A stretch of 64,000 bases of DNA from Verrucomicrobiota bacterium (GTDB taxonomy: Bacteria; Verrucomicrobiota; Verrucomicrobiia; Opitutales; UBA953). A model generated the notes under the pieces. It had not been told where the DNA came from and did no database searches. It saw nothing but the letters and a program-made list of their open reading frames with translations. Location of the stretch: assembly GCA_016871725.1 (NCBI GenBank), contig VHCL01000003.1, positions 59,714-123,713 on the forward strand. The letters run 5' to 3'. Made by a program: the position numbers and the translations under genes. Numbering within the stretch: the first letter of the stretch is position 1; every line of letters starts with the position of its first letter. Positions 1-27,002 of the stretch are shown here, in pieces.

Positions 1-2
1 CG

Positions 3-1565
3 ATGGCCGGCGGCTCTTCCAAGGGCTTCGGCGGCGGCTCCGGCGGCGGCATCGGCACCGGCCGCGGCATGGGCTCCGGCGGCGGCAAGAACTTCGTCGC
101 GAAGCCGGTCATGGGCGCGAACATCTTCTCGCAGCGCCTCGCGGTCTACTTCGACGCCTCGGCTTCCATGCTGCCCTACCTCGAGCGCGTCGAGGCCGAG
201 ATCCGCGACAAGTTCCCCGACGCGGACGTCTTCCTCAGCAACGGCGTCTTCATCGACGTGCATGACAACGAGATCGTCGGCGGCGAGAAGTTCAAGGGCA
301 CGCCTTACCTCAACCGTCCCACCGGCACGGGCGCCAAGAAGAACGCCAAGGGCGAACTCGTCCCGACCGAGACCAACGTCAACAAGCTCACCACCCAGGG
401 CCGGGCCATCTATAAGAAGTACGCCCAGAACTTCAAGGTCGGCTCCGTCGGCGGCTGGGTCGACATCCTCAAGGACGACCGCACCTACGACGCGCTCATC
501 ATCTTCTCCGACTTCCAGGACGGCGTCCGCCAGATCCGCACCAAGGCGATCGGCAACGTGCCCGCTTACAAACCCGACAAGGGCATGCGTCCCGACCCGC
601 CTGTGGTCTTCTCCGACCGCACCAACCAAGGCGGCGGTTTCGCCCGCTCGGTGACGCTCATCGCCAGCGGCGGCGGCTCCGGCCAGAACGTGGTGCAGTG
701 CAAGGACACCTCCGGCCTCATCGTCGGCATGGTCGCCCTCGGGGCCGGCATCCCGCCCGGCACGACGGTCACCGAGATCAAGGAGAACGTCAGCTTCACC
801 CTCAGCAAGCCCCTCACGGCCCTCGCCAGCGGCCGCATCACCTGCAACAACGGCGGCGACAAGCGTTTCCCCGAAGAGCGTAAGTGGGAAGACGAGTGGG
901 AGAAGGCCTTCGCCGGCGCCCGCGAGAACAAGGGTCCCCGCCTCTATCTGATCAGCACCTCGCGCGCCTACGGCAACAAGCCCGGGACGATCTTCCAGCG
1001 CTGCGTCTCCGCTTCCGAAGGCAGCGCCATCATGGTGAAGTTCGGCAACGGCAAGAAGGGCGCGAACACCCTCGACGACCTGCACAATTACGACGACCTC
1101 TACGTCGGCATGCCGGTCAGCGGCCGCGGTGTCCCCGACGGCGCCGTCCTCACGGCCATGCCGACCTTCAAGAACATCGTCGACCCCGAGGATCCCGAGA
1201 AGAAGCGCATGAAACGCGTCATCGACAAGCAGCTGACGATCTCCGCGCCGCTGACCGAGGATTCCCTCAACGCCGTCTTCGCCTTCATCCCGCTCATCCA
1301 GGCCGTCGGCACCCTGGCCAAGGACTCCAAGACCATCGAGGACGTCTCCGGCTCGATCGACCTCCGTTCCGGCATGCTGATCCAGGACAACCGTTTCCCG
1401 GCCGGCACGAAGATCGTCTCCGTGGCCCCGAACAAGACCTCGCCCGGCTTCTACACGGTCGAGATGTCCGCCCCGGCCACGGCCGCCGGCGCCAACAGCG
1501 TCCTGCGTTTCCGTCCGGCGGGTTCCGGCGCGGGCAGCAACCGTTCCGGCGCGCCCGCCCGCTGA
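3..1565 (+). CDS. VWA-like (MIDAS DxSxS) protein with Gly-rich N-terminal part and three internal/C-terminal beta-type modules; probably 5'-truncated by the window edge
   Basis: AVYFDASASM motif, DALIIFSDFQDG; closely similar to the downstream protein at 1747-2826, which has a further N-terminal anchor. Confidence 0.75.
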   Translation: MAGGSSKGFGGGSGGGIGTGRGMGSGGGKNFVAKPVMGANIFSQRLAVYFDASASMLPYLERVEAEIRDKFPDADVFLSNGVFIDVHDNEIVGGEKFKGTPYLNRPTGTGAKKNAKGELVPTETNVNKLTTQGRAIYKKYAQNFKVGSVGGWVDILKDDRTYDALIIFSDFQDGVRQIRTKAIGNVPAYKPDKGMRPDPPVVFSDRTNQGGGFARSVTLIASGGGSGQNVVQCKDTSGLIVGMVALGAGIPPGTTVTEIKENVSFTLSKPLTALASGRITCNNGGDKRFPEERKWEDEWEKAFAGARENKGPRLYLISTSRAYGNKPGTIFQRCVSASEGSAIMVKFGNGKKGANTLDDLHNYDDLYVGMPVSGRGVPDGAVLTAMPTFKNIVDPEDPEKKRMKRVIDKQLTISAPLTEDSLNAVFAFIPLIQAVGTLAKDSKTIEDVSGSIDLRSGMLIQDNRFPAGTKIVSVAPNKTSPGFYTVEMSAPATAAGANSVLRFRPAGSGAGSNRSGAPAR

Positions 1566-1746: not shown

Positions 1747-2826
1747 ATGTCTTCGGCGGATCCTTTCGTGGCCGCGCGCCCGCGCTCTCCTGCCTGGCGC
1801 AGCCTGGCCTCGTCGCTGCTCTTCCATGGCGTGCTCGTGGTGCTGGCCTGCTGGGTCGTCCTGCGCACGCCGACCCGGCCGCCGGCGGCGAAGGAATTCG
1901 TCGCCCATGCCGTCGCCGGGGGCAGGTCCGGCGCACCGGCTTCCGTCCACCCTGTGCAGCGTAAGCCCAAGGTCACCGTGCCTGCGAAGCGTCTCGTCTC
2001 TAAGTCCGCGACCGCGACCTTGGCGTTGCCGCCGATGAAGGCCATGACCCCTGAGGTGGGGCTGGCCGGGCTGACCGCGGGGCAAGGGAAGGGCGGCTTC
2101 GGCCGAGGTCGCGGAAGCTTCGGTGGCGCTGGCCTCGGGGCAGGCTTGGGCCATCGCGCCGGCTTCGTCGGCCGTCCGGTGATGGGCGCGTTCATCCGGG
2201 CGCAACGCGTGGCGGTCTATCTCGATTGCTCGGGCTCGATGCGCAGCTATCTCCCCCGCGTCGAGGCCGAGATCCGGAAGCAGTTTCCCGATGCCGACGT
2301 CTTCCGCTTCGACGGGGCCCGCGTGGTCGGACTGGGCGACAAGGTCGTCCACGGCCGCGGTTTCCAAGGTCCGGCGCCGCGCCTGCGCGAAGGGCCGACG
2401 CAGACCGTCGTCGAGACCCTGACGCCGAACGGCCGCTTGGTGCAGGCGAAGGTCCGGACGGCCTGCGAGAAGGGTTCGCTGGGCGCGTGGATGGATCGGC
2501 TCTTGGCCGAGCCCTACGACGCCTTGGTGGTATTCTCGGATTTCCAGGACGGGGTCCGCCTCTACGAGACGAAGAAGGGTGAGCCGAAGATGGTCTACTC
2601 GGACAGCTCCTATCATAAGTTCGGAGGGCCGCCGAAAGCCCCGACCCGCTGGCAGCGCGAATGGCTGGAGGCCTTCGGCAAGGGCGCGCAAGGCCGTGGG
2701 CCGAGGCTGTACCTCTTCAGCGTCCAACAGGAGCCACAGGCTTTCCTACGCGCCTGCGTGACGGCCTCCGGCGGGTCCTGGACTTCGGTGTCCTGGCTCC
2801 GCAAAGGCGGCCGGAAAGCGCCTTGA
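1747..2826 (+). CDS. Membrane-anchored VWA-like protein (paralogue of the preceding gene)
   Basis: N-terminal TM SSLLFHGVLVVLACWVV; Gly-rich linker; VAVYLDCSGSM MIDAS; DALVVFSDFQDG. Confidence 0.8.
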   Translation: MSSADPFVAARPRSPAWRSLASSLLFHGVLVVLACWVVLRTPTRPPAAKEFVAHAVAGGRSGAPASVHPVQRKPKVTVPAKRLVSKSATATLALPPMKAMTPEVGLAGLTAGQGKGGFGRGRGSFGGAGLGAGLGHRAGFVGRPVMGAFIRAQRVAVYLDCSGSMRSYLPRVEAEIRKQFPDADVFRFDGARVVGLGDKVVHGRGFQGPAPRLREGPTQTVVETLTPNGRLVQAKVRTACEKGSLGAWMDRLLAEPYDALVVFSDFQDGVRLYETKKGEPKMVYSDSSYHKFGGPPKAPTRWQREWLEAFGKGAQGRGPRLYLFSVQQEPQAFLRACVTASGGSWTSVSWLRKGGRKAP

Positions 2827-2863
2827 CGGTTGCGCCGGCGGGCCGGACGGCTTGCATAGGCGC

Positions 2864-3283
2864 ATGGCCCCTTTCACGGCGGATTACCGCGCGAATTTCT
2901 CCGACACCGACGCCGCGGGCATCGTGCATTTCTCGACGGTGTTCTTCTGGGTCGAGGCGACCGAAGAGGCCCTCTTCCGTCATCTCAAGCTACCTTTCCT
3001 TCGGACCGAGGGCGCCAAGCTCACGGGCTTCCCCCGGGTGCGCGTGGAGTGTGACTTCCTTTCCCCGATCTACCGTGAGGACGTCGTGACCGTCGCGCTG
3101 ACGCCGATCGAGATCGGCGACAAGAAGCTCGTCTGGGGCTTCACCGCCGCCGTGGGAGAACGCTCCGTCGCGAAGGGCGCCCTGACCACCGTCTACGCCT
3201 GGCGCGAAGCCCAAGGCCCCATGTCGGCCGCCCTCGTGCCGCTCGAGGTCAAGACGGCGCTCCAGAAGCATTTCGGCGTCTGA
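2864..3283 (+). CDS. Acyl-CoA thioesterase, 4HBT/YbgC-like
   Basis: Hotdog pattern YRANFSDTDAAGIVHFSTVFFWVEATEEALF; ATG at 2864 chosen over upstream TTG. Confidence 0.8.
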   Translation: MAPFTADYRANFSDTDAAGIVHFSTVFFWVEATEEALFRHLKLPFLRTEGAKLTGFPRVRVECDFLSPIYREDVVTVALTPIEIGDKKLVWGFTAAVGERSVAKGALTTVYAWREAQGPMSAALVPLEVKTALQKHFGV

Positions 3284-4689: not shown

Positions 4690-5625
4690 ATGGAAGACAC
4701 CCCGATCATCCACAACTTCTCCCACGAGGCCTTCGGCTCCCGTTTCTGGGTGCGCATCGCCGCGGAAGACGGCGTCTACGCCCGCAACGCGGCCGAGAGC
4801 CTGTTCCAGCTGCTCGATGACCTGGATTTCCAGACCGACCTCCGTCATGACAGCGGTCCGGTGACCGCGATCAACCAGATGCCCGAAGGCGCGATGGTCG
4901 CCGTCTCCGAGCATGTCCAGGCGCTGTGGAATTTCTCGAAGGACGTCAGCGCCGACTCAGGCAAGGCCTTCGACGCCACCGCCGGCGCCCTGTTCAGTTA
5001 TTGGCAGAAGCGCGGCGACCTCGGTTTCAATCCTGACGACGCCGCCTGGACTCAGGTCATGTCCGCCTACCGCGAAGGTGCTTTCCGATTCGAGGGCTGT
5101 GAGCTGCACTGCGACAAATTCGGCGGCGCCGTCGACTTCGGTGCGATCGTCCGTGGTTACGCCCTCGACCGCATGGCGGACATGCTGGAGAGCAGCTGGG
5201 GCATCCATCGCGCCCTGCTCATGGCCTCCGGCAGCGTCACCCTCGCGCTCGATCCGCCCGGCGAATCCGCCGGCTGGCGCATCGGCGTCGGTCCCCGTTC
5301 CGAGCTCAAACTCTGCCGGTTCGCGATGGCCAGCAAGACCGCGGATCCCGCGCGTAATAATCTCGTCGATCCGCGTACCGGCCAGGCCGTCACGCTCGCC
5401 GGACCGGTGCGCGCGATCGCGACTTCCGCCCTCGAAGCCGAAGGGCTCGCCATGGTCGGGGCGGTCCTGTCCCCGGCGGAGGCCGAGGAGTTCGTCAACC
5501 GCGGCTGCAGCCGCGGGCTCTGGCTGCCGGACGGCACCAAGCTCGGGTCCGTGACCTACTTCGAGGTCACCGAACGCCCGGAGCCTGCGGCCAATCCGGC
5601 TTCCTCCGAAGGGGCGGCTACCTGA
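4690..5625 (+). CDS. ApbE-family (FAD:protein FMN transferase-like) protein
   Basis: HEAFGSRFWV, DATAGALFSYW, VDFGAIVRGYALDRM, NLVDPRTGQAV. Confidence 0.75.
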   Translation: MEDTPIIHNFSHEAFGSRFWVRIAAEDGVYARNAAESLFQLLDDLDFQTDLRHDSGPVTAINQMPEGAMVAVSEHVQALWNFSKDVSADSGKAFDATAGALFSYWQKRGDLGFNPDDAAWTQVMSAYREGAFRFEGCELHCDKFGGAVDFGAIVRGYALDRMADMLESSWGIHRALLMASGSVTLALDPPGESAGWRIGVGPRSELKLCRFAMASKTADPARNNLVDPRTGQAVTLAGPVRAIATSALEAEGLAMVGAVLSPAEAEEFVNRGCSRGLWLPDGTKLGSVTYFEVTERPEPAANPASSEGAAT

Positions 5626-7363
5626 GCTTCGCCTCGACGTCGCGCAGCAGCGTCTCGCGGTCGCTCGAGAAGAGGTAGGTGTCCGAACCGAGCCGGCGCA
5701 AGGCGGCCCGGAGGACTTCCGGCGATGGACGACGGTTGAGCATCAGCCGGCGCAGGTAGGTCTCGAGGTCGGCGGCGATGCGCGGGTGGTCGAGCTTGAG
5801 CTGCACGATCTGCATCAGGATCGCCTGGTTGGTCTCGTTCTGCAGGTGGGCCTGGATGAGCACGTCGTTGGCCTCGTCGTAACGTTTCGCCGTGATCAGC
5901 TTGCGGCTGGCGGCGACCAGCACCTGCGGCGGCACCTTCCGGTGCTGCATCAGCTTCTGCAGGTTGATGGAGCCGATCTCCGTCTGCCCGTCGGCGAAGT
6001 AGGCGATGGTCCGGAGGGCGTCGAACGCGATGCGTGTCTCGGCCACCCATTGGTCGCGCTCGGCCTGCTTGTACAGCGCGTCAACGAGTAGGATGGTCTC
6101 GCGGGCGCGGCCGGCATTGAGCAGGCATTCCACGTGCACGAGGTCGAAGCGGACGCGGTTGCCGAACTTACGCTCGAGCGCCAGCTTGGCCAGCCGGGCC
6201 GTGAGCGCGACGTCCGCGGTGTCGTTGCCGAACCGCGCGAGGTCGAGCATCGGCTGCTCCTGGTTGCCGTAGGTCGCGATGATCTTCTCGACCAAGGCCG
6301 CCCGCCGGGGCCGGTCGGCTTCACCGGGCAGGAGGTAGAGCGACTGGATGAGCGGGCCGGGCCGGCCGGGCTGGCTGATGCTCAGCAGATCAAGGGTGTC
6401 CTGGGCCCGGCGGAGCTCGCCGCTCTCCTTCAGCCAGCGCGCCTTCATCTCGAGCAGGCGGACGCCGGCGGGGAAGACGGCCAGCGCCGCGTCGAGTTCG
6501 GCGAGCGCGCCCTCGCGGTCGCCGCTTTCCCAGAGCAGCTGGCAGTTGAGCAGGTAGCCGTCGGCGGTCTGGTCCAGCCGGTGCTCCTTGATCAGCCGCG
6601 CCGTATCGGCGAAGTCCCCTCGGAGGAAGTGGGCCTGCGCGGCGGCCAGGCGGAGGTCCGCGCGGATGTCCTCGGCGACCGCCGGGTCCGCCAGATGCTT
6701 CGTCGCCGTGGCGATGAGGCGGGCGTCCTGGTCCAGCATGAAGCACCGCTGGACGTAGTAGCGGAAGTATTCGCGGTCCTGCTTGGCGAAGACGAGCGAC
6801 TCCTCGAGCAGCTGGTAGGCGTCCAGCGGACGCTGGAACACGAAGAAGAGGTCGGCGCACAGGCGCTGGGCCTCGAGGTTCGCCGGACTGAGCTGCGCGC
6901 CGGTGCCGATGTAGCGGGCGAACTCGGCGTAATCCTGCCGGGCGAGGGCCTCCTTCGCGACGCTCACGTAGTATTCGCCCTTGCGGTAGAGGTGCGCCGA
7001 CCTTCCGTAGGAATCCTTCGCCGACAGCAGCTTCGCCCGCTCGCGGAGACGGATGTTTTCTTTGTTCAGGAAGAGGTTCGCGGCGGAGTTGCCCACGGTG
7101 TCCGGCAGGTAGAGGTACATGTCGGCCCGGCGCGTCGACGGGATGCCGTTCATGAACCGTTCCTTGAAGTAGTTCGCCTCCGACAGCGCGACCCAGAGGA
7201 GCAGCAGGGCGAACGGGGTCAGCAGGCCGATCCGCCGCCAGTTCGGTCGGTAGCGGCGTTCCTTGTAGCCGATGACCTCGACCGTCACCGTGCCCAGCAG
7301 GATGGGGTGGCTCGAGCGCGAGCTCTGCCCTTGGCCGTAGACGTAATGGGGGTCGGCTGACAT
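5618..7363 (-). CDS. Membrane-anchored TPR protein
   Basis: N-terminal TM LLTPFALLLLWVALSEA followed by many TPR-like helical pairs. Confidence 0.65.
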   Translation of the reverse strand: MSADPHYVYGQGQSSRSSHPILLGTVTVEVIGYKERRYRPNWRRIGLLTPFALLLLWVALSEANYFKERFMNGIPSTRRADMYLYLPDTVGNSAANLFLNKENIRLRERAKLLSAKDSYGRSAHLYRKGEYYVSVAKEALARQDYAEFARYIGTGAQLSPANLEAQRLCADLFFVFQRPLDAYQLLEESLVFAKQDREYFRYYVQRCFMLDQDARLIATATKHLADPAVAEDIRADLRLAAAQAHFLRGDFADTARLIKEHRLDQTADGYLLNCQLLWESGDREGALAELDAALAVFPAGVRLLEMKARWLKESGELRRAQDTLDLLSISQPGRPGPLIQSLYLLPGEADRPRRAALVEKIIATYGNQEQPMLDLARFGNDTADVALTARLAKLALERKFGNRVRFDLVHVECLLNAGRARETILLVDALYKQAERDQWVAETRIAFDALRTIAYFADGQTEIGSINLQKLMQHRKVPPQVLVAASRKLITAKRYDEANDVLIQAHLQNETNQAILMQIVQLKLDHPRIAADLETYLRRLMLNRRPSPEVLRAALRRLGSDTYLFSSDRETLLRDVEAKLR

Positions 7364-19813: not shown

Positions 19814-20257
19814 TTATTCGGTGTCGGACACCGCGAACGTCACGTTCGTGATGTTCGCCTTGGCCAGGATATCGAGGACGTTGATGACGCGCTCGTAGCG
19901 GGCGTTCTCTTCGGCCTGCACCGTGATGAGGAGCTTGGTCTTGGACTGCTCGGCGGCCTGGCCCATCAGCTTCATCTGGTTGTAGAGGTTCTCGAGGAGC
20001 TTGTCGCCGGGCGGGCCGACCGGGTCTTCGTTGAGGGTGACTTCGCCGGTCTCGCTGACGCCGATGGTGACCTCGTCGGGGAGTTCGGTCTCCTTGGCGG
20101 TCTCGGCGTTGCCGGGCAGGGTGGTCTTGAGCTCATGCTCCACCTTGACGGCGCCGGCCATGACCATGAAGAAGAGCATGATCACGAAGACCACGTCGAT
20201 CATCGGCGCGATCTGGAAGCCCGGGGCGGCGTCGGCCGGCTGTTCTTTCTGCTTCAT
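19814..20257 (-). CDS. ExbD/TolR-family protein
   Basis: FQIAPMIDVVFVIMLFFMVMAGAV TM helix with conserved Asp. Confidence 0.9.
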   Translation of the reverse strand: MKQKEQPADAAPGFQIAPMIDVVFVIMLFFMVMAGAVKVEHELKTTLPGNAETAKETELPDEVTIGVSETGEVTLNEDPVGPPGDKLLENLYNQMKLMGQAAEQSKTKLLITVQAEENARYERVINVLDILAKANITNVTFAVSDTE

Positions 20258-20260
20258 GGC

Positions 20261-20701
20261 TTATTCTTCGTGGTTGAGGCCCGAGAAGGCGATGTTGTCG
20301 ATGCCCGCCTCGGCGCCCCATTCGAGGGCCTTGGAGACGTACTTGGCGTGGCACTCCTTGTCGGCGCGGACCAGCAGGCGGTACTTCTCGTTGGAGCCCT
20401 TGCGGTCGGCGAGCTCCTTGGCGATGCCCTCCTTGTCGTTCGGGTCGAGCTCGCGGTCGTCGAGCTTGTACTTCGCCTGGCCCGTGGTCTTGTCCCACGA
20501 GATGTTGATCAGGCCGGCCGCGGCCTTGTCGTCGCGCTTGACGCCGTTGGAGGCGACCGGGAGCGAGATGTTCTTGTCGACCTTGAGCACCTGGGAGGAG
20601 GTGATCGACATGAAGAAGATCAGCAGCACCAGGAGCACGTCGATCATCGGCGCGACCTGGAACTCCGGTTCGCCTTCTCCGCCTCCGCCTCCGCCTGCCA
20701 T
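20261..20701 (-). CDS. ExbD/TolR-family protein
   Basis: FQVAPMIDVLLVLLIFFMSIT TM helix with conserved Asp. Confidence 0.9.
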   Translation of the reverse strand: MAGGGGGGEGEPEFQVAPMIDVLLVLLIFFMSITSSQVLKVDKNISLPVASNGVKRDDKAAAGLINISWDKTTGQAKYKLDDRELDPNDKEGIAKELADRKGSNEKYRLLVRADKECHAKYVSKALEWGAEAGIDNIAFSGLNHEE

Positions 20702-20733
20702 GGGTGTGCCGTGGGATTAGGGGTGGGAGGGGC

Positions 20734-21525
20734 TCAGCCCTGGACGTTGGAGGACGCGCTCCAATCGGGCTTGGCGGCGTAGATCTCTTCGTCGCCGACC
20801 TTGCGGCCTTCGACTTCCTCGTAGGGGAAGGCGCGGAAGAGGCCGGTCACGATCTCGGTGATGTCGTGGATGCCCTTGTTGATGCGGTTGGCCAGGAGGT
20901 AGTAGGCGATGAACGCCGGGATCGCGATGAAGAGGCCGGAGGCGGTCGCCACGAGCACTTCGCCGATCGCGCCGGAGAGCTTGGAGGGGTCGCCCACGCC
21001 GGACGTGCCGAGGGTCTCGAACGCGCTCATCATGCCGGTCACGGTGCCGGTGAGGCCGATCATCGGGGTGCAGACCCCGATCACGGAGAGGTATGAGGAG
21101 CGGCCCTTGAGTTCGCCCTGGATGCGGACGATCTCGGAGAGGATGGCCTCTTCGGTCATGGTCTTGCCATCCGGGGTGAAGGCGACGCCGGCGCGCACGA
21201 CATCGGCTACGGGGGAGCCGGCGGTCTTGGCGAAGGCGTAGGCGCCGACGTAGTCGCCCTTCTTGAAGAGCTCGCGGAGCTGGGTGACATGCTCGGCGGG
21301 GTACATCTTGCCGGCGCTGGTCTTGATGAAGCCGTCGACCATGAACCACATCATGGCCACGGAGCAGAGGGTGATCGGGTACATGACCCAGCCGCCTTCG
21401 ATGAAGAGGTCGGCGAGGGTCTTGTGGTGCACGGCGGCCGGCGCGGCCTCCTGGGCGGAGCCGGTGAGGGTCAGCAGGCCCAGGAGGGCGGTGCTGAGGA
21501 GGGCGGAACGTAGGTTCATCTTCAT
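20734..21525 (-). CDS. MotA/TolQ/ExbB proton channel family protein
   Basis: Signal peptide plus IGVCTPMIGLTGTVTGMMSAF, ATASGLFIAIPAFIAYYLL. Confidence 0.9.
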   Translation of the reverse strand: MKMNLRSALLSTALLGLLTLTGSAQEAAPAAVHHKTLADLFIEGGWVMYPITLCSVAMMWFMVDGFIKTSAGKMYPAEHVTQLRELFKKGDYVGAYAFAKTAGSPVADVVRAGVAFTPDGKTMTEEAILSEIVRIQGELKGRSSYLSVIGVCTPMIGLTGTVTGMMSAFETLGTSGVGDPSKLSGAIGEVLVATASGLFIAIPAFIAYYLLANRINKGIHDITEIVTGLFRAFPYEEVEGRKVGDEEIYAAKPDWSASSNVQG

Positions 21526-21578
21526 GATGATGGGGTGTAGGTTGGTATCTAGGTTAGGTTTTGGAAAGGGGCAAGGAC

Positions 21579-22595
21579 TCACTTGTTGCCTTCGACCTTC
21601 TCTTCGGCGGCCAGCTTGGGCTTGGCCAGCATGACGCCTTCGGGGAGGGGACCGCCGGCGGCGATCTTCTTCTGGTCGGCTTCGGCCTTGGCGCGCTCCT
21701 CGGGGGGCAGCAGCTTCTTGGCCTCCTCGGCCTCCTTGGAGACCGGGAAGGAGACGATGATGTCGTACAGGTAGCGGTTGGAGACCGCCTCGAGCTTCTG
21801 GTCCCGGAGGGCCGGGCTGTCCATGCCGCGGAAGGCGCGGGCGGCGCCGAGCAGGGCCTTGGGGATCATCTCGGTCTCGGAGCCGAAGAAGACCGGCACG
21901 CGCAGGTAGGTGGTCATCGCCGCCTCGTACTTCTTGGCCGCGAGGAGGGAATTGCCCTTGGTCAGGTGGAGGCGGGCCTGGAGTTCGGAGCTGTCGACCT
22001 TCGTGAGCAGCTCGGTGGCCTCGCGGATGACGGCGTCATGCTCGCCTTTGCGGGCGCGCAGCATGAGGCGGGCGAGCTGGATCTGGGTCGCGACTTCCGG
22101 CTTCTTGGCGGCTTCCTCCTTCTCGAGGGTCGCGAGGAAGCCGTTGGTGGCGGCGTCGTTCTCGAGGCGGTCGAGCGCGTCGAGTTTGATCAGGGCGGCC
22201 TTGGTCCACCAGGACCCGGCCACGTTCTTGAGGGGCTCGAAGAACTTCAGCACGGCCTCCGCGTTGTCGAGGGCCTTGGCCGGCTCGCCGCGGTTGACGT
22301 TGTTCTGCGCCTCCTGGAGGCGGGCCGGCATCGGCCAGATGATCTCGGTGACTTCGGAGAGCTTCCGGGTGTCGGTCGACACGAAGCCGCCGCGGTTCGA
22401 GGTGCGGTCGACGGTTCCCTTGATGACGTTGATGACGCCCTTCTTCTCGTCGACGACTGGCTTCGGCGGGATCGAGTTGTCCAGCTTGAAGGGATCGTTG
22501 ACCTCCCAGCGTTCGCCTTTGAAGACGAAGGTCTGGGCCGGCGACGAGGCGGCGGCGAGGAGCGCGAGGGCGGTGAGGAGGAGGGGGCGGCGCAT
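21579..22595 (-). CDS. Secreted TPR-like protein of the ExbB/ExbD operon
   Basis: Signal peptide MRRPLLLTALALLAAASSPAQ; TPR-like repeats; contiguous same-strand genes. Confidence 0.7.
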   Translation of the reverse strand: MRRPLLLTALALLAAASSPAQTFVFKGERWEVNDPFKLDNSIPPKPVVDEKKGVINVIKGTVDRTSNRGGFVSTDTRKLSEVTEIIWPMPARLQEAQNNVNRGEPAKALDNAEAVLKFFEPLKNVAGSWWTKAALIKLDALDRLENDAATNGFLATLEKEEAAKKPEVATQIQLARLMLRARKGEHDAVIREATELLTKVDSSELQARLHLTKGNSLLAAKKYEAAMTTYLRVPVFFGSETEMIPKALLGAARAFRGMDSPALRDQKLEAVSNRYLYDIIVSFPVSKEAEEAKKLLPPEERAKAEADQKKIAAGGPLPEGVMLAKPKLAAEEKVEGNK

Positions 22596-22600
22596 GGCGT

Positions 22601-25600
22601 TCAGAGTCCGAGGAGGTAGGCTTTGGCTTCTTCCGCCTCGCGCGTGTCCTTGATGCGTTCCTTCTGGAGCATCTCCTGGAGGAGGCGCTTGGCGCCGTCC
22701 TTCTGGTCGAGCTTGGTCGCGAGGATCTTGGCTTCGGCGAAGTAGGATTTCGCGGCCCAGACCTCGTATTTCTTCCAGGTCATGTAGCAGCGGCGGTAGT
22801 AGGCGACGGCGCGGGCGTAGCCGTCCTTGTCGGCCGCCTGGCGTTCTTCCATGAGGCCGAGCCAGTAGAGCGAGGCGGCGGTCTTCTCGCCGCGCCATTC
22901 CTTGGTCTTGGCGATCTCCTCGAACTCCTCCTTGGCTTCCTTGTACTTGGCGAGCTCGGCGAGCGAGCGGGCGCGGGTGAAGCGGAGGTCGAGCTCCTTC
23001 GACATCAGGATGTTGTTGTCGATGGCCTCGTTGCAGAGCGAGAGGGCCTCGGCGTACTTCTTCTCGCCGAAACGGATGTCGGCGAGCCCGGCGAAGCCGT
23101 AGTCGGCGTATTCGGAGGAGCGGGCGAATTCGAGGATGTAGCGGAAGAACTCCTCGGCCTTCTTCAGGTCGCCCTTGGCGAGGAGGCTGTCGCCGACGAG
23201 GGCGAGGATGGTCGGGTTGAGCTCCTCGGCCTTGAAGTTGGCGGCGATCTTGGCGAAGTTCGCGGCGGTCTTCTCGGGTTCGCGGGTGAACACGGCGAGC
23301 TGGCCGAGGGCGAAGAAGCCGCGGGCCTGGGCGACGAGCGAGGCGCGGTTCTCGTCGAGGCGGAGCAGCTTGGTGAGCTCCTTCTCGGCGTCGGCGCTGG
23401 TGTAGGCGCCGGGCTCGGGCTTGGCTCCGGCCTTCACGCGCTTGATCTTCCGGGCCAGCTTCTCGGCGAGGAAGACGATGAGCTTCTCGGTGCCTTCCTG
23501 CTTCCGGTCGTTGATGGATTCGGCGACGGCGTCGGAGAGGATCTTGAGGGCGCGCTTCTTCTGCTCGGCGATGGAGGCCTGGCGCTTGGCCTCGACCTTG
23601 GCGAGCTCGGCCTCGAGCTCGGCGGAGAGCTTCTTGACGGCCTCCTTGGCGGCGTCGATCTCGGGGCGGGTGACGCCCTGCTTGCGCTCGGTCTGGTCGA
23701 CGGCCTTGCGGGCGTCGGCGAGCTTGGCGCTGAACTCCTTGCGGACCTTCTCGGCCTGCTGGGCGAACTCGGGCATGTCGCCCATGCGCTCGGTCGAGCG
23801 GATGACCTCGTAGAGGTAGGTCATCGCCTTGGGGTCGTTGTGGTCCCAGTCGAAGATCTCCTTGAACAGGTCGCGCATGCGCTTGTGCTCGCCGCGGCCG
23901 GGGAGGAGCTTGCGCAGCTCGCCGAGGACGAACTCCAGGGCCTGCGGGTTGGTGCGGGCGCTCTTGGCGGCGGCCTCGTAGGCGTCGATCGCCTTGCCGG
24001 TGGCGGCCTCCTTCTCCTTCTCGAGCTTGTCCTTGATGGCGGCGAACTTCGCGCGGTCAGGGGTCTTGAGGTTGACGCGCAGGTCGATGTCGGCGGCTTT
24101 GACCTTCTTGTCGAGCTCGTCGGCCATGCGGATGTAGGCGTCGCCGATCAGCGTGTGGACCTCGGGGGTCTGGGCGATGACCTCGTCGGTGCGGTCCTTG
24201 GCGTAGTCCTTCAGCCAGTCCTCGCAGAGCTTGATCGTGCCGGCGATGTCGGGCGGGTTGACGCCGAACTTGACGATGGCCTGGCGGTAGCGGACGTCGG
24301 GGATGAACTGGCCCTTCGGGTATTCCGACTCGTACTTGTCGAAGTCGACCTTGGTCTCCTTGTACTTGCCCTGGAAGAACGAGCAGAGCGCGTTCATGTA
24401 GAGCACCTGCTGGCGGACGGACGAACGCTCGTACTTCTTGAGGAAGGCCTCGAAGGCCTTCTGCGCCGGCGCCCAGTCGACCTGCGAGAAGAGGCAGGCG
24501 GCGATGCGGAAGTCGATCTCCTCGGCGACCTCGGGGGTGAGGTTCGTCACGTTGGCCTGGACCCACTTGTAATGCTCGATGGCCTCGGGGAACTCCTCGC
24601 GCTCCTGCGAGATGTCGCCGAGGATGAGGGCGATGGACGAGACCATCTCGTCCTTCGGGAACTTCTGGATGAACTCCTTGCACTTCGCCTGGGCCTCGTT
24701 GTTGCGGCCGATCCGGCGCAGCGCGACGATGTGGTAGTAGTAGGCTCCGGCGATGCGGCTGAATTCCGGGCTGTTCTCGAAGATGTCGAGGAAGGCGACG
24801 TGGGCCTCCCACGGGCGCTTCAGTTCGAGCAGGCAGAGGCCGATGCGGTAGGAGATGAACGCGTCGTAGTCCTTGTTGGCCTTGAACTCGGCTTCGATCT
24901 TCTTGAACTGCTCGAGGTCGAGCTGGGCGCGGCGGATGGCGTCGGCCTGCTCGGGGTTCGGCTTCGGGGCGGCCTTGATCATGCCCTCCAGCTCGGTCTG
25001 CTTGGTCTCGATGGCGCGGGCGAAGGAGCGGGTCAGGTTCGCGCGGCGGAGCGTGCCCTGGTAGTTGTTGAGCGCCTGGCGGTAGAAGTCGCCGCGGAAG
25101 GCCTCGTCGGCCGCGGATTCGGCGGCCGCGAAGCGGGCGTCGCCGATCTCGAGGCGCTGGAAGTTGGAACGGACCACCTCGACGGGGGAGCCGTTGCTGC
25201 GGGCGTCGATCTCGCTCTTGAGCTGGGACGCCTCCTTGGTGAGGCCCAGCTTGGTGTACATCTCCACGAGCTTGTAGGCCGCTTCCCGGCGTTCCGGGGT
25301 GTTGATGCCTTCGGCGGTCGCCTGCTTGAGGAGGCTGATGGCCTGGGCGTAGGCGGCTTTCTTGAGGTCGTCGGTCGAGCTCTTGGCGCGGTCGACGACG
25401 ATCTGGGCCGAAAGCGTGAAGGCGTTCACGCGCTCCTCAGGCCGGGCGAGCGTGTTGGTGCGGAGCTTCTCCAGCCGGGCGAGGGCCTGGTCCCACTTGC
25501 CCTGCTTGGAGAAGGCCTCGATGAGCAGGAGCTCGGCGGTGCCGCGGCGGTTGTCGTTGTCGAAGAAGTCCTCGGTGCCCTTCGGGTATTTGTCCAGGAA

Positions 25601-25933
25601 GCCGGTGAGCTCGACCTGGGCCTTCGGCCAGTCCTTCATGAAGAAGAGGCAGGTGGCCTTGCGGAAGGAGAGGACCGCCTTCATGCTGGCGGCGACGTCG
25701 CCGGCCTTCTCCTCGAGTTCCTCGAAAAGGGCGAGGGCCTCCTTGTACTTCTTCTCCTCGAAGGCCTTGTCGGCGGCTTTGTAGAGGACGTTCAGGGGGT
25801 CCTCCTTGACTTCCGCGGTGGGCAGGGGCTTGGACTGCGCGCGCAGGACGCCGGAGACCGGGGTCACGGCGAGGAGGACGGCGAGCAAGGCGGCCTTGGC
25901 CAGTTGGTAGGTGCGGGACTCTTGGATAAGCAT
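22601..25933 (-). CDS. Large secreted TPR-repeat protein (~1110 aa)
   Basis: N-terminal LAKAALLAVLLAVTPVSGVLRAQ signal; many TPR-like pairs; ATG at 25933. Confidence 0.75.
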   Translation of the reverse strand: MLIQESRTYQLAKAALLAVLLAVTPVSGVLRAQSKPLPTAEVKEDPLNVLYKAADKAFEEKKYKEALALFEELEEKAGDVAASMKAVLSFRKATCLFFMKDWPKAQVELTGFLDKYPKGTEDFFDNDNRRGTAELLLIEAFSKQGKWDQALARLEKLRTNTLARPEERVNAFTLSAQIVVDRAKSSTDDLKKAAYAQAISLLKQATAEGINTPERREAAYKLVEMYTKLGLTKEASQLKSEIDARSNGSPVEVVRSNFQRLEIGDARFAAAESAADEAFRGDFYRQALNNYQGTLRRANLTRSFARAIETKQTELEGMIKAAPKPNPEQADAIRRAQLDLEQFKKIEAEFKANKDYDAFISYRIGLCLLELKRPWEAHVAFLDIFENSPEFSRIAGAYYYHIVALRRIGRNNEAQAKCKEFIQKFPKDEMVSSIALILGDISQEREEFPEAIEHYKWVQANVTNLTPEVAEEIDFRIAACLFSQVDWAPAQKAFEAFLKKYERSSVRQQVLYMNALCSFFQGKYKETKVDFDKYESEYPKGQFIPDVRYRQAIVKFGVNPPDIAGTIKLCEDWLKDYAKDRTDEVIAQTPEVHTLIGDAYIRMADELDKKVKAADIDLRVNLKTPDRAKFAAIKDKLEKEKEAATGKAIDAYEAAAKSARTNPQALEFVLGELRKLLPGRGEHKRMRDLFKEIFDWDHNDPKAMTYLYEVIRSTERMGDMPEFAQQAEKVRKEFSAKLADARKAVDQTERKQGVTRPEIDAAKEAVKKLSAELEAELAKVEAKRQASIAEQKKRALKILSDAVAESINDRKQEGTEKLIVFLAEKLARKIKRVKAGAKPEPGAYTSADAEKELTKLLRLDENRASLVAQARGFFALGQLAVFTREPEKTAANFAKIAANFKAEELNPTILALVGDSLLAKGDLKKAEEFFRYILEFARSSEYADYGFAGLADIRFGEKKYAEALSLCNEAIDNNILMSKELDLRFTRARSLAELAKYKEAKEEFEEIAKTKEWRGEKTAASLYWLGLMEERQAADKDGYARAVAYYRRCYMTWKKYEVWAAKSYFAEAKILATKLDQKDGAKRLLQEMLQKERIKDTREAEEAKAYLLGL

Positions 25934-26063
25934 CGGGTGAGGGGAGCGTATTGCTCCGCGTCGGGGGTGCGTAGGAATAGCCCAAGCGTCCGAGGGATGC
26001 CAAGCAATAAGCCCCCTCCGAGGGGCGAATGTCCGCCGCCGGAGGGCCCGGCTGTGAATAAGT

Positions 26064-27002
26064 TCAGGCGCCGGGGCGGAGACCGGTCGCCAGGATGGTC
26101 TCAAATCCGGGCTCCTTGGGCTCCTTGGCCACCACGCGGACCTCCGATTGGGCGAAGCCAGCCTCCTCGATCCAGTCGTGGAGCTCGTTCTCCTTGAAAC
26201 CGAGCCAGCGGTCGGCGTACAGCTCGCGGGCTTTCTCGAAGCGGTGGGCGCGCAGGTCGAGGACGATGAGCCGCCCGCCCGGCTTGAGGATGCGGAAAGC
26301 CTCGGCGAGGGCCGTGCGGGGGTTTTCGGCGTGGTGCAGCGCCTGGCTCAGCAAGGCGAGGTCGATGCTCCGGTCCGGCAGCGGCACCTTCTCGATGTTG
26401 CCGAGGACGTAGGTCAGGTTGCGCAGCTGCTCCTTCTTGGCCAGCGTCCGGCCGACCTGGACCATGCGCGGGGAGCTGTCCACGCAGTGGACGCTTTCGG
26501 CCTGGCGGGCGAGGAGGCGGGAAAGGGTGCCGTCGCCGGCCCCGAGGTCGGCGATCCGGATGCGGGGCGTGAGCAGGAAGAGCATCTGGCCGATGGCCTC
26601 CCAGGAGCGGCCGGGGCAGTAGTTCCGCCCCAGGCGGTCGGCCACGTGGTTGAAGTGCTGTTCGGCCTTCTGGCGGCGCTTCTCCACGATGCGCTGCCAG
26701 GCGCGTTGGTCGGCGGCCGCCTTGGGCTCGCGGGCGCAGGCGGCCAGGGCCGCGTCGATGACGCCGCCGACGCCGGGCGGGAGGTCGCGGGCCACGGCAT
26801 AGAAGGATTTCTTGCCGTCGCGGCGGTCGACCACCAGGCCGGCCTTGCGGAGCAGGGCGAGGTGGGTCGAGATGCGCGACTGCGGGAGCCCGAGGATCTC
26901 CTGCAGCTCGCCGACGGCCAGCTCGCCGCGGTGCAGCAGATGCAGCATGCGGGAGCGCGTGGGGTCGGCCAGCAGGCGCAGGGATTCCCAAGGGTCGGGC
27001 AT
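26064..27002 (-). CDS. ArsR-type HTH fused to class I SAM methyltransferase
   Basis: LLADPTRSRMLHLLHRGELAVGELQEILGLPQSRISTHLALLRKAGLV; IADLGAGDGTLSRLLA. Confidence 0.88.
   Translation of the reverse strand: MPDPWESLRLLADPTRSRMLHLLHRGELAVGELQEILGLPQSRISTHLALLRKAGLVVDRRDGKKSFYAVARDLPPGVGGVIDAALAACAREPKAAADQRAWQRIVEKRRQKAEQHFNHVADRLGRNYCPGRSWEAIGQMLFLLTPRIRIADLGAGDGTLSRLLARQAESVHCVDSSPRMVQVGRTLAKKEQLRNLTYVLGNIEKVPLPDRSIDLALLSQALHHAENPRTALAEAFRILKPGGRLIVLDLRAHRFEKARELYADRWLGFKENELHDWIEEAGFAQSEVRVVAKEPKEPGFETILATGLRPGA

Follow-up and report, generated by a model that had tools for sequence, protein, structure and literature searches.

Motor-driven vWA "force transducers" with an N-terminal transmembrane (TM) helix bearing S-x3-H (SHLS), a disordered linker (~100 residues), and a vWA-like end were proposed in 2025 (Williams-Jones, PMC12204202), where adjacency to TPR, tolQ, and tolR genes was described as frequent in the PVC group and not as defining. 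TonB and TolA likewise combine a membrane anchor bearing S-x3-H with a periplasm-spanning linker. On the phage side, small domains of the virion surface can spread, as is known for Ig-like domains (promiscuity described in a 2006 paper cited by PMC10385173). The gene described here, gene A, was analyzed in a window of 64,000 nucleotides (the whole stretch of DNA under analysis; contig VHCL01000003.1, positions 59,714 to 123,713, of the Verrucomicrobiota assembly GCA_016871725.1). Its product shares the three-part layout of the 2025 transducers and, like them, is found in Verrucomicrobiota with a TPR-TolQ-TolR-TolR operon in the same region of the genome. Its vWA-like end carries one nested beta module and a tail of two more. 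Gene A is read here, at a probability of roughly 0.6, as encoding a motor-coupled TonB/TolA-like transducer whose vWA end gained the modules as a binding surface or spacer.

Gene A and its vWA-like domain

Gene A encodes 660 amino acids (L008:9297-11279) and starts 417 bases upstream of window position 1. The window lacks its first 140 codons and contains the 3' 521 codons, at positions 1..1565 (+ strand). The open reading frame placed at 603-1560 in the preliminary description is real and in the frame given there, with the gene start outside the window. In order, the product has a TonB-like anchor, a Gly-rich linker, a vWA-like domain with one inserted module, and a two-module tail. The N-terminal TM segment with S-x3-H (S48, H52) and the linker are encoded outside the window (L008:9297-9800). 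Part 1 of the vWA-like domain (138..614, +) contains the MIDAS motif D-x-S-x-S (DASAS, ~153-167) and the third MIDAS Asp in FSDFQDG (~510-512). Module copy 1 (645..851, +) occupies the loop that connects the beta-hairpin behind this third Asp to the helix WEDEWEKAF. Part 2 of the domain (861..1037, +) comprises the helix KWEDEWEKAF, the strand RLYLIS, the helix FQRCVSA, and the last strand SAIMV. Module copy 2 (1017..1295, +; LYVGMPVSGRGVPDGAVLTAM ... KQLTISAPLT ... AVFAF) has a charged loop in its middle and is followed by the degenerate copy 3 (1284..1520, +; LRSGMLIQDNRFPAGTKIVSV ... YTVEMSAPATAAG ... VLRF).

Gene B (1747..2826, +) is an insert-free paralogue of A with the same type of anchor (S-x3-H) and a vWA-like domain. 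The collinearity of A and B that had been noted by eye was borne out by an alignment of the two with a third paralogue, C (contig C136). In this alignment, the roughly 70 extra residues reported for A correspond to a 68-aa block (SVTL...ITCNN, window ~645-851) between VVFSDRTNQGGG and GGDKRFPEE, and the extra C-terminal segments of A are likewise present as a tail after RCVSASEGS.

The MIDAS residues D22, S24, S26, and D141 (D-x-S-x-S and the third Asp) are invariant in 44/44 homologue rows. Searches of A, B, and C against Pfam, NCBIfam, and PHROGs returned nothing useful and no vWA, TonB, or TolA family match, and no vWA chain was matched when the vWA core was used in a profile search of the PDB. 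A fold search of the PDB with the core placed the vWA domain of CLCA1 at ranks 1-3 (probability 0.85-0.95, E ~0.01-0.03), with moderate TM-scores. The vWA domain of A is thus probably a divergent one, judging from the models. It is called "vWA-like" here, not a vWA family member, because the MIDAS and the fold matches come without a sequence profile match; the earlier wording "VWA-like" was right on the same grounds.

In the AlphaFold models, the insert-free vWA core of B has a pLDDT of 93 (AF2), and vWA part 1 of A is mostly at 84-96. The insert of A forms a unit of its own (strands 185-253 of the modeled part, mostly at pLDDT ~76-87). The flanking strands and helices of the vWA domain are complete, as is the core with or without the insert. 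Structure prediction, proposed earlier as a check that could have shown the insert to be integral strands of the vWA fold, thus gave a separate beta unit and an intact core. The strands of the tail are predicted at pLDDT 56-83, with low-confidence joins. That the insert lies near the metal site is suggested by the topology of the model, in which the third MIDAS Asp is followed by the hairpin and then by the insert.

Module copies in gene A

The module profile used for scoring A was built only from modules of other proteins to avoid circularity, and its chance level was set with 2,000 shuffles of the A protein, the best of which reached 8.9 bits. Copy 1 scored 73.8 bits (E 4e-22), copy 2 scored 18.6 bits (E 7e-5), and copy 3 scored 10.8 bits (E 0.018). 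With the same profile, B, C, D (a gene that shares the N-terminal part of A, below), and the insert-free orthologues of A gave nothing above noise. The motif of copy 3 is degenerate, reading RFPAGT without GIP. Copy-to-copy profile comparisons scored 28.0 (1 v 2), 26.1 (1 v 3), and 24.4 (2 v 3), against column-shuffle maxima (200 shuffles each) of 22.9, 26.6, and 19.9, respectively; copies 1 and 3 taken alone are therefore at the edge of chance. On these sequence comparisons, copy 1 is certain as a module, copy 2 is well supported, and copy 3 is plausible and degenerate, its assignment being marginal. Of the three modules with a shared core claimed in the preliminary description, the first two stand, and the third is weak and has lost its GIP. 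The claim that one module lies inside the vWA-like region agrees with the placement of copy 1 and its absence from B, C, and the insert-free orthologues.

Gain of the insert and probable gain of the tail

Matches of the A type were found in 79/79 genomes of the family, some of them to the shared N-terminus only. The aligned orthologues of A fall into three states, namely no module, copy 1 only (G068, G046, G052, and G054), and copy 1 plus the tail (14 in the tree, the window included). Insert-free relatives occur at the same locus in the genus of the window and in genus g5, and insert-free homologues occur in g2 and g4. In a tree of A built without the module columns, the carriers of copy 1 form one clade within the genus of the window (support 99/98), and the full-length carriers, with copy 1 and the two-module tail, form a sub-clade of it (99/98). 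The forms with copy 1 only are also one clade (97/90), and the other genera sampled in the tree are all insert-free. The distribution supports an insert-free ancestral form, and copy 1 would most simply have been gained once, in one clade of the genus of the window. For the two-module tail, either a gain by the full-length clade or a loss by the sister clade would explain the pattern; a gain is favored because the sister keeps an ancestral-looking C-terminus ending in KPVR. Median dN/dS was 0.16 for copy 1, 0.18 and 0.21 for the tail modules, and 0.12 and 0.07 for the two halves of the vWA-like domain, and the values of the modules indicate that they are maintained by purifying selection.

Distribution and relatives of the module

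Within the family, the module profile matched 48/55 genomes of the genus of the window and 0/24 genomes of the other genera. Outside A, the matching open frames are mostly 1,000 to 17,232 aa long. Three of these giant module proteins carry PATR repeats (PF12951; one below the curated cut-off), and the PATR giants have the modules in tandem, with identities to copy 1 of up to 43% and an N-terminal TGGxxGQxV stretch common to both. In a wider sample of the phylum, the module was found in 25/289 genomes at E 1e-6, mostly in long proteins. Open frames of 11,590 to 17,232 aa that are rich in PATR and beta structure and hold many modules were observed at G049:C2 (L108-L110), G052:C10, G060:C33, G060:C70, and G026:C37; the very large giant module genes sit in Opitutae genomes of only 2-2.7 Mb. 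A correlation of the insert in A with the giant module proteins was weighed and dismissed, as many giant copies are also present in insert-free genomes, G049, G031, and G032 among them.

When the module profile, made mostly from modules of the host genus, was compared with the PDB, it matched the decoration protein of Arthrobacter phage Bridgette (8eci_1, E 1.5e-5). Independently, a fold search with the predicted structure of A hit the same chain (probability 1.00, 2.6 A over 71 columns, 30% identity); apart from 8eci_1, the results of this whole-model search were dominated by noise. Fold matches were also obtained to phage glycine-rich and virion structural proteins (27-28% identity, 2.2-2.4 A) and, at lower identity, to phage tail-collar proteins. 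A viral contig protein adjoining T4-type head genes is 45% identical to copy 1 over 58 aa. In two phage virion proteins (L073:3001-3102 and L074:3001-3159), a relative of the module follows a region matching Pfam Phycobilisome (E 5.7e-6 and 0.003). No Pfam or PHROG model for the module was found on these proteins, a PDB search with the tail alone had no significant match, and a literature search for the motif letters returned nothing. Against named phage genomes, tblastn gave one weak match with copy 1 and none with an idealized consensus, probably owing to divergence. Judged by sequence and models, the module is a member of a promiscuous beta-domain family of phage and surface proteins. The earlier suggestion of a mobile structural beta module colonizing a vWA scaffold is supported by the single gain, the presence of the module in giant and phage proteins, and its separate predicted unit. 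The adhesive role that had been offered as the alternative gained no support.

Three other accounts of the extra segments were weighed. Neutral, fast-evolving, low-complexity additions, resembling one another through convergence of Gly/Pro/Thr-rich loops, would fit the little that copies 2 and 3 have in common outside the core motif and the comparison of copies 1 and 3, no better than its best column shuffle. This account is nevertheless very improbable given the 73.8 bits of copy 1 with an independent profile, the scores of copies 2 and 3 above all 2,000 shuffles, the dN/dS of 0.16-0.21 in the modules, and the fold match to a solved phage protein. More improbable still is an origin of the insert-free form by deletion, with the module as an old part of the vWA family that was lost repeatedly, even though both forms occur in one genus. 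No sampled orthologue of g2, g4, or g5 has the insert, nor do the paralogues B, C, and M. The module was not found in any of the 24 genomes of the other genera, and a single change accounts for the trait on a tree in which the carriers are one clade at 99/98. The deletion derivative that had been named as a possible refutation was thus looked for, and insert-free forms were found throughout the family. The remaining account concerns origin only and is compatible with a motor-driven transducer, namely that the module came straight from a phage virion gene, for instance by prophage recombination, and not from the PATR giants of the host genus. The solved relative is a phage protein and the viral contig protein beside T4-type head genes reaches 45% over 58 aa, yet the giants of the host genus reach 43% identity, share TGGxxGQxV, and hold many copies in the same genomes, which makes them the nearer source; a direct phage origin is possible and rather doubtful.

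Gene order, anchor, and candidate motor

Genes A and B are followed by a hotdog thioesterase gene of the YbgC/FadM type (2852..3283, +; 4HBT 1.7e-5), whose matches to TIGR00051 (2.2e-6) and ybgC (2.4e-6) are both below the cut-off, making it distantly YbgC-like. The order A-B-thioesterase is kept in the genus of the window and in genus g5. A YbgC-like thioesterase beside A and B recalls tol-pal operons, an analogy that proves nothing by itself. In several genomes, a third vWA gene lies between A and B (L018:2348-3115, +; L024:3578-4348, +; L015, -), with a likely signal peptide by eye and without a TonB-like anchor. Two further genes, D and E (contig C1), share the N-terminal part of A and have a different end, one being PA14-like at a sub-threshold E of 0.15. 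Tandem genes with the TonB-like anchor and Gly-rich linker of A and a PA14-like end domain were observed at L010:4134-5429 and 5499-6779 (-), and in genome G049, many of the 19 matches to A fall on the anchor part. The TonB-like anchor of A may therefore be one platform that carries different end domains.

S48 and H52 are invariant in A, B, and C, and S-x3-H was present in 46/47 proteins checked, the exception probably being a mis-extended frame. The linker of A spans about 100 residues (~64-172) and is Gly/Ser/Lys-rich by composition. TonB_C had no Pfam match in A; PF03544 is present elsewhere in the genome, which has ordinary TonB_C proteins. A candidate motor for A and B is encoded on the opposite strand of the window (19814-26104, -) by an operon comprising a large TPR protein (22601..26104, -; TPR families to 4e-10), a small signal-peptide protein that is TPR-like by eye and has no Pfam match at 0.001 (21579..22598, -), a TolQ/ExbB-like motor protein (20734..21582, -; PF01618 2.9e-24, TolQ model best), and two TolR/ExbD-like proteins (protein 1, 20261..20701, -; protein 2, 19814..20257, -). 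No TonB/TolA-like transducer gene adjoins this operon, which lies about 19 kb from A on the same contig. A motor gene is likewise about 20 kb from A in eight further genomes in which the two share a contig; in genus g4, the distance from A is at least 38 kb or the motor is on a different contig. Beside the motors of the same genome on C18, C22, and C27, a simple pattern search found no TonB-like S-x3-H anchor; a TonB_C gene adjoins the C22 motor.

By their TonB-like S-x3-H anchor, A and B may belong to the motor-driven vWA force transducers. The vWA-core profile matched only within this family of genomes and nowhere else in the order, and kinship with the 2025 transducers is thus not demonstrable by sequence; A is likened to the Tichowtungia transducers by its layout. 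Coupling of A or B to the motor operon of the window, a periplasmic location, and a bound partner are inferred. In the proposed mechanism, the N-terminal membrane helix with its motor-binding S-x3-H would tie A to the motor, the glycine-rich linker of about 100 residues would cross the periplasm, and the vWA-like end with its intact metal site would stand in for TonB_C. In one clade of the genus, the vWA-like end acquired a free-standing beta module (~65 residues), placed in a loop that by topology comes behind the metal-site aspartate, and the main branch of that clade probably then added a further two copies ahead of the C-terminal end. The modules would most likely act as a binding surface or spacer beside the vWA ligand site, and A, driven by the motor, would engage an outer-envelope partner that its insert-free relatives do not.

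Two other roles for the modules were compared with this one. The genus of the window has A and B downstream of pilB-pilT-pilB-pilC, which would suit vWA adhesins linked to a type IV pilus and used like PilY1 or RrgA, with the modules as adhesive arms. RrgA and GBS104, too, have a pair of arms inserted into the vWA domain next to the metal site (PMC7893114), and giant surface-type proteins often contain the module. A direct pilus link is weakened, as a strong terminator-like stem (L008:8904-8935) and an opposite-strand tRNA-Met (L008:9083-9160) split pilC from A. The linkage is also looser in genus g5, where the gap between pilC and A is about 3.5 kb, and a search of 4-10 kb around A in g4 and in one g2 genome found no pil genes. 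The TonB-like inner-membrane anchor and Gly-rich linker, with no pilin-type signal seen, count against a pilus adhesin as well; such a role is unlikely, and the anchor and the linker of about 100 residues favor a force transducer in the periplasm over an adhesin at the cell surface. It is also conceivable, and quite improbable, that the modules in A recognize like modules in the giant PATR proteins and that the proton-driven motor pulls on the giants or helps to place them; such a like-with-like link is unsupported because insert-free genomes have giants too.

Gene A and its orthologues offer living intermediates for the insertion of a domain within a folded domain, from no module through one nested module to a nested module with a two-module tail, and a likely source family of the module is present in the same genomes as the intermediates. 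The recently proposed vWA force transducers would thereby be extended by a lineage-specific change near the presumed ligand site. Comparison of the carriers with insert-free sister genomes could show what the vWA end binds.

Comparison with known systems

Beyond the layout shared with the vWA force transducers (PMC12204202), A differs from them in that its gene is not adjacent to the motor, that it forms an A-B pair followed by a YbgC-like thioesterase gene, and that modules are nested in and appended to its vWA-like end. Unlike TonB and TolA, it has no TonB_C or TolA end domain. RrgA and GBS104 resemble A in having extra segments inserted in a vWA domain beside the metal site (PMC7893114), whereas they are sortase pilus tip adhesins of Gram-positive bacteria with different inserts; the insertion in A would thus resemble their arms in kind and not in origin. 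The decoration protein of phage Bridgette (PDB 8ECI chain 1) shares sequence (a GIPAGTTIT core) and fold with the module, but it is a free capsid protein, whereas the module of A is a domain in a bacterial membrane protein. The PATR (PF12951) giants have the same module as A, there in tandem copies, and differ from A in being beta-rich, secreted-type proteins of 2,000-17,000 aa without a TonB-like anchor.
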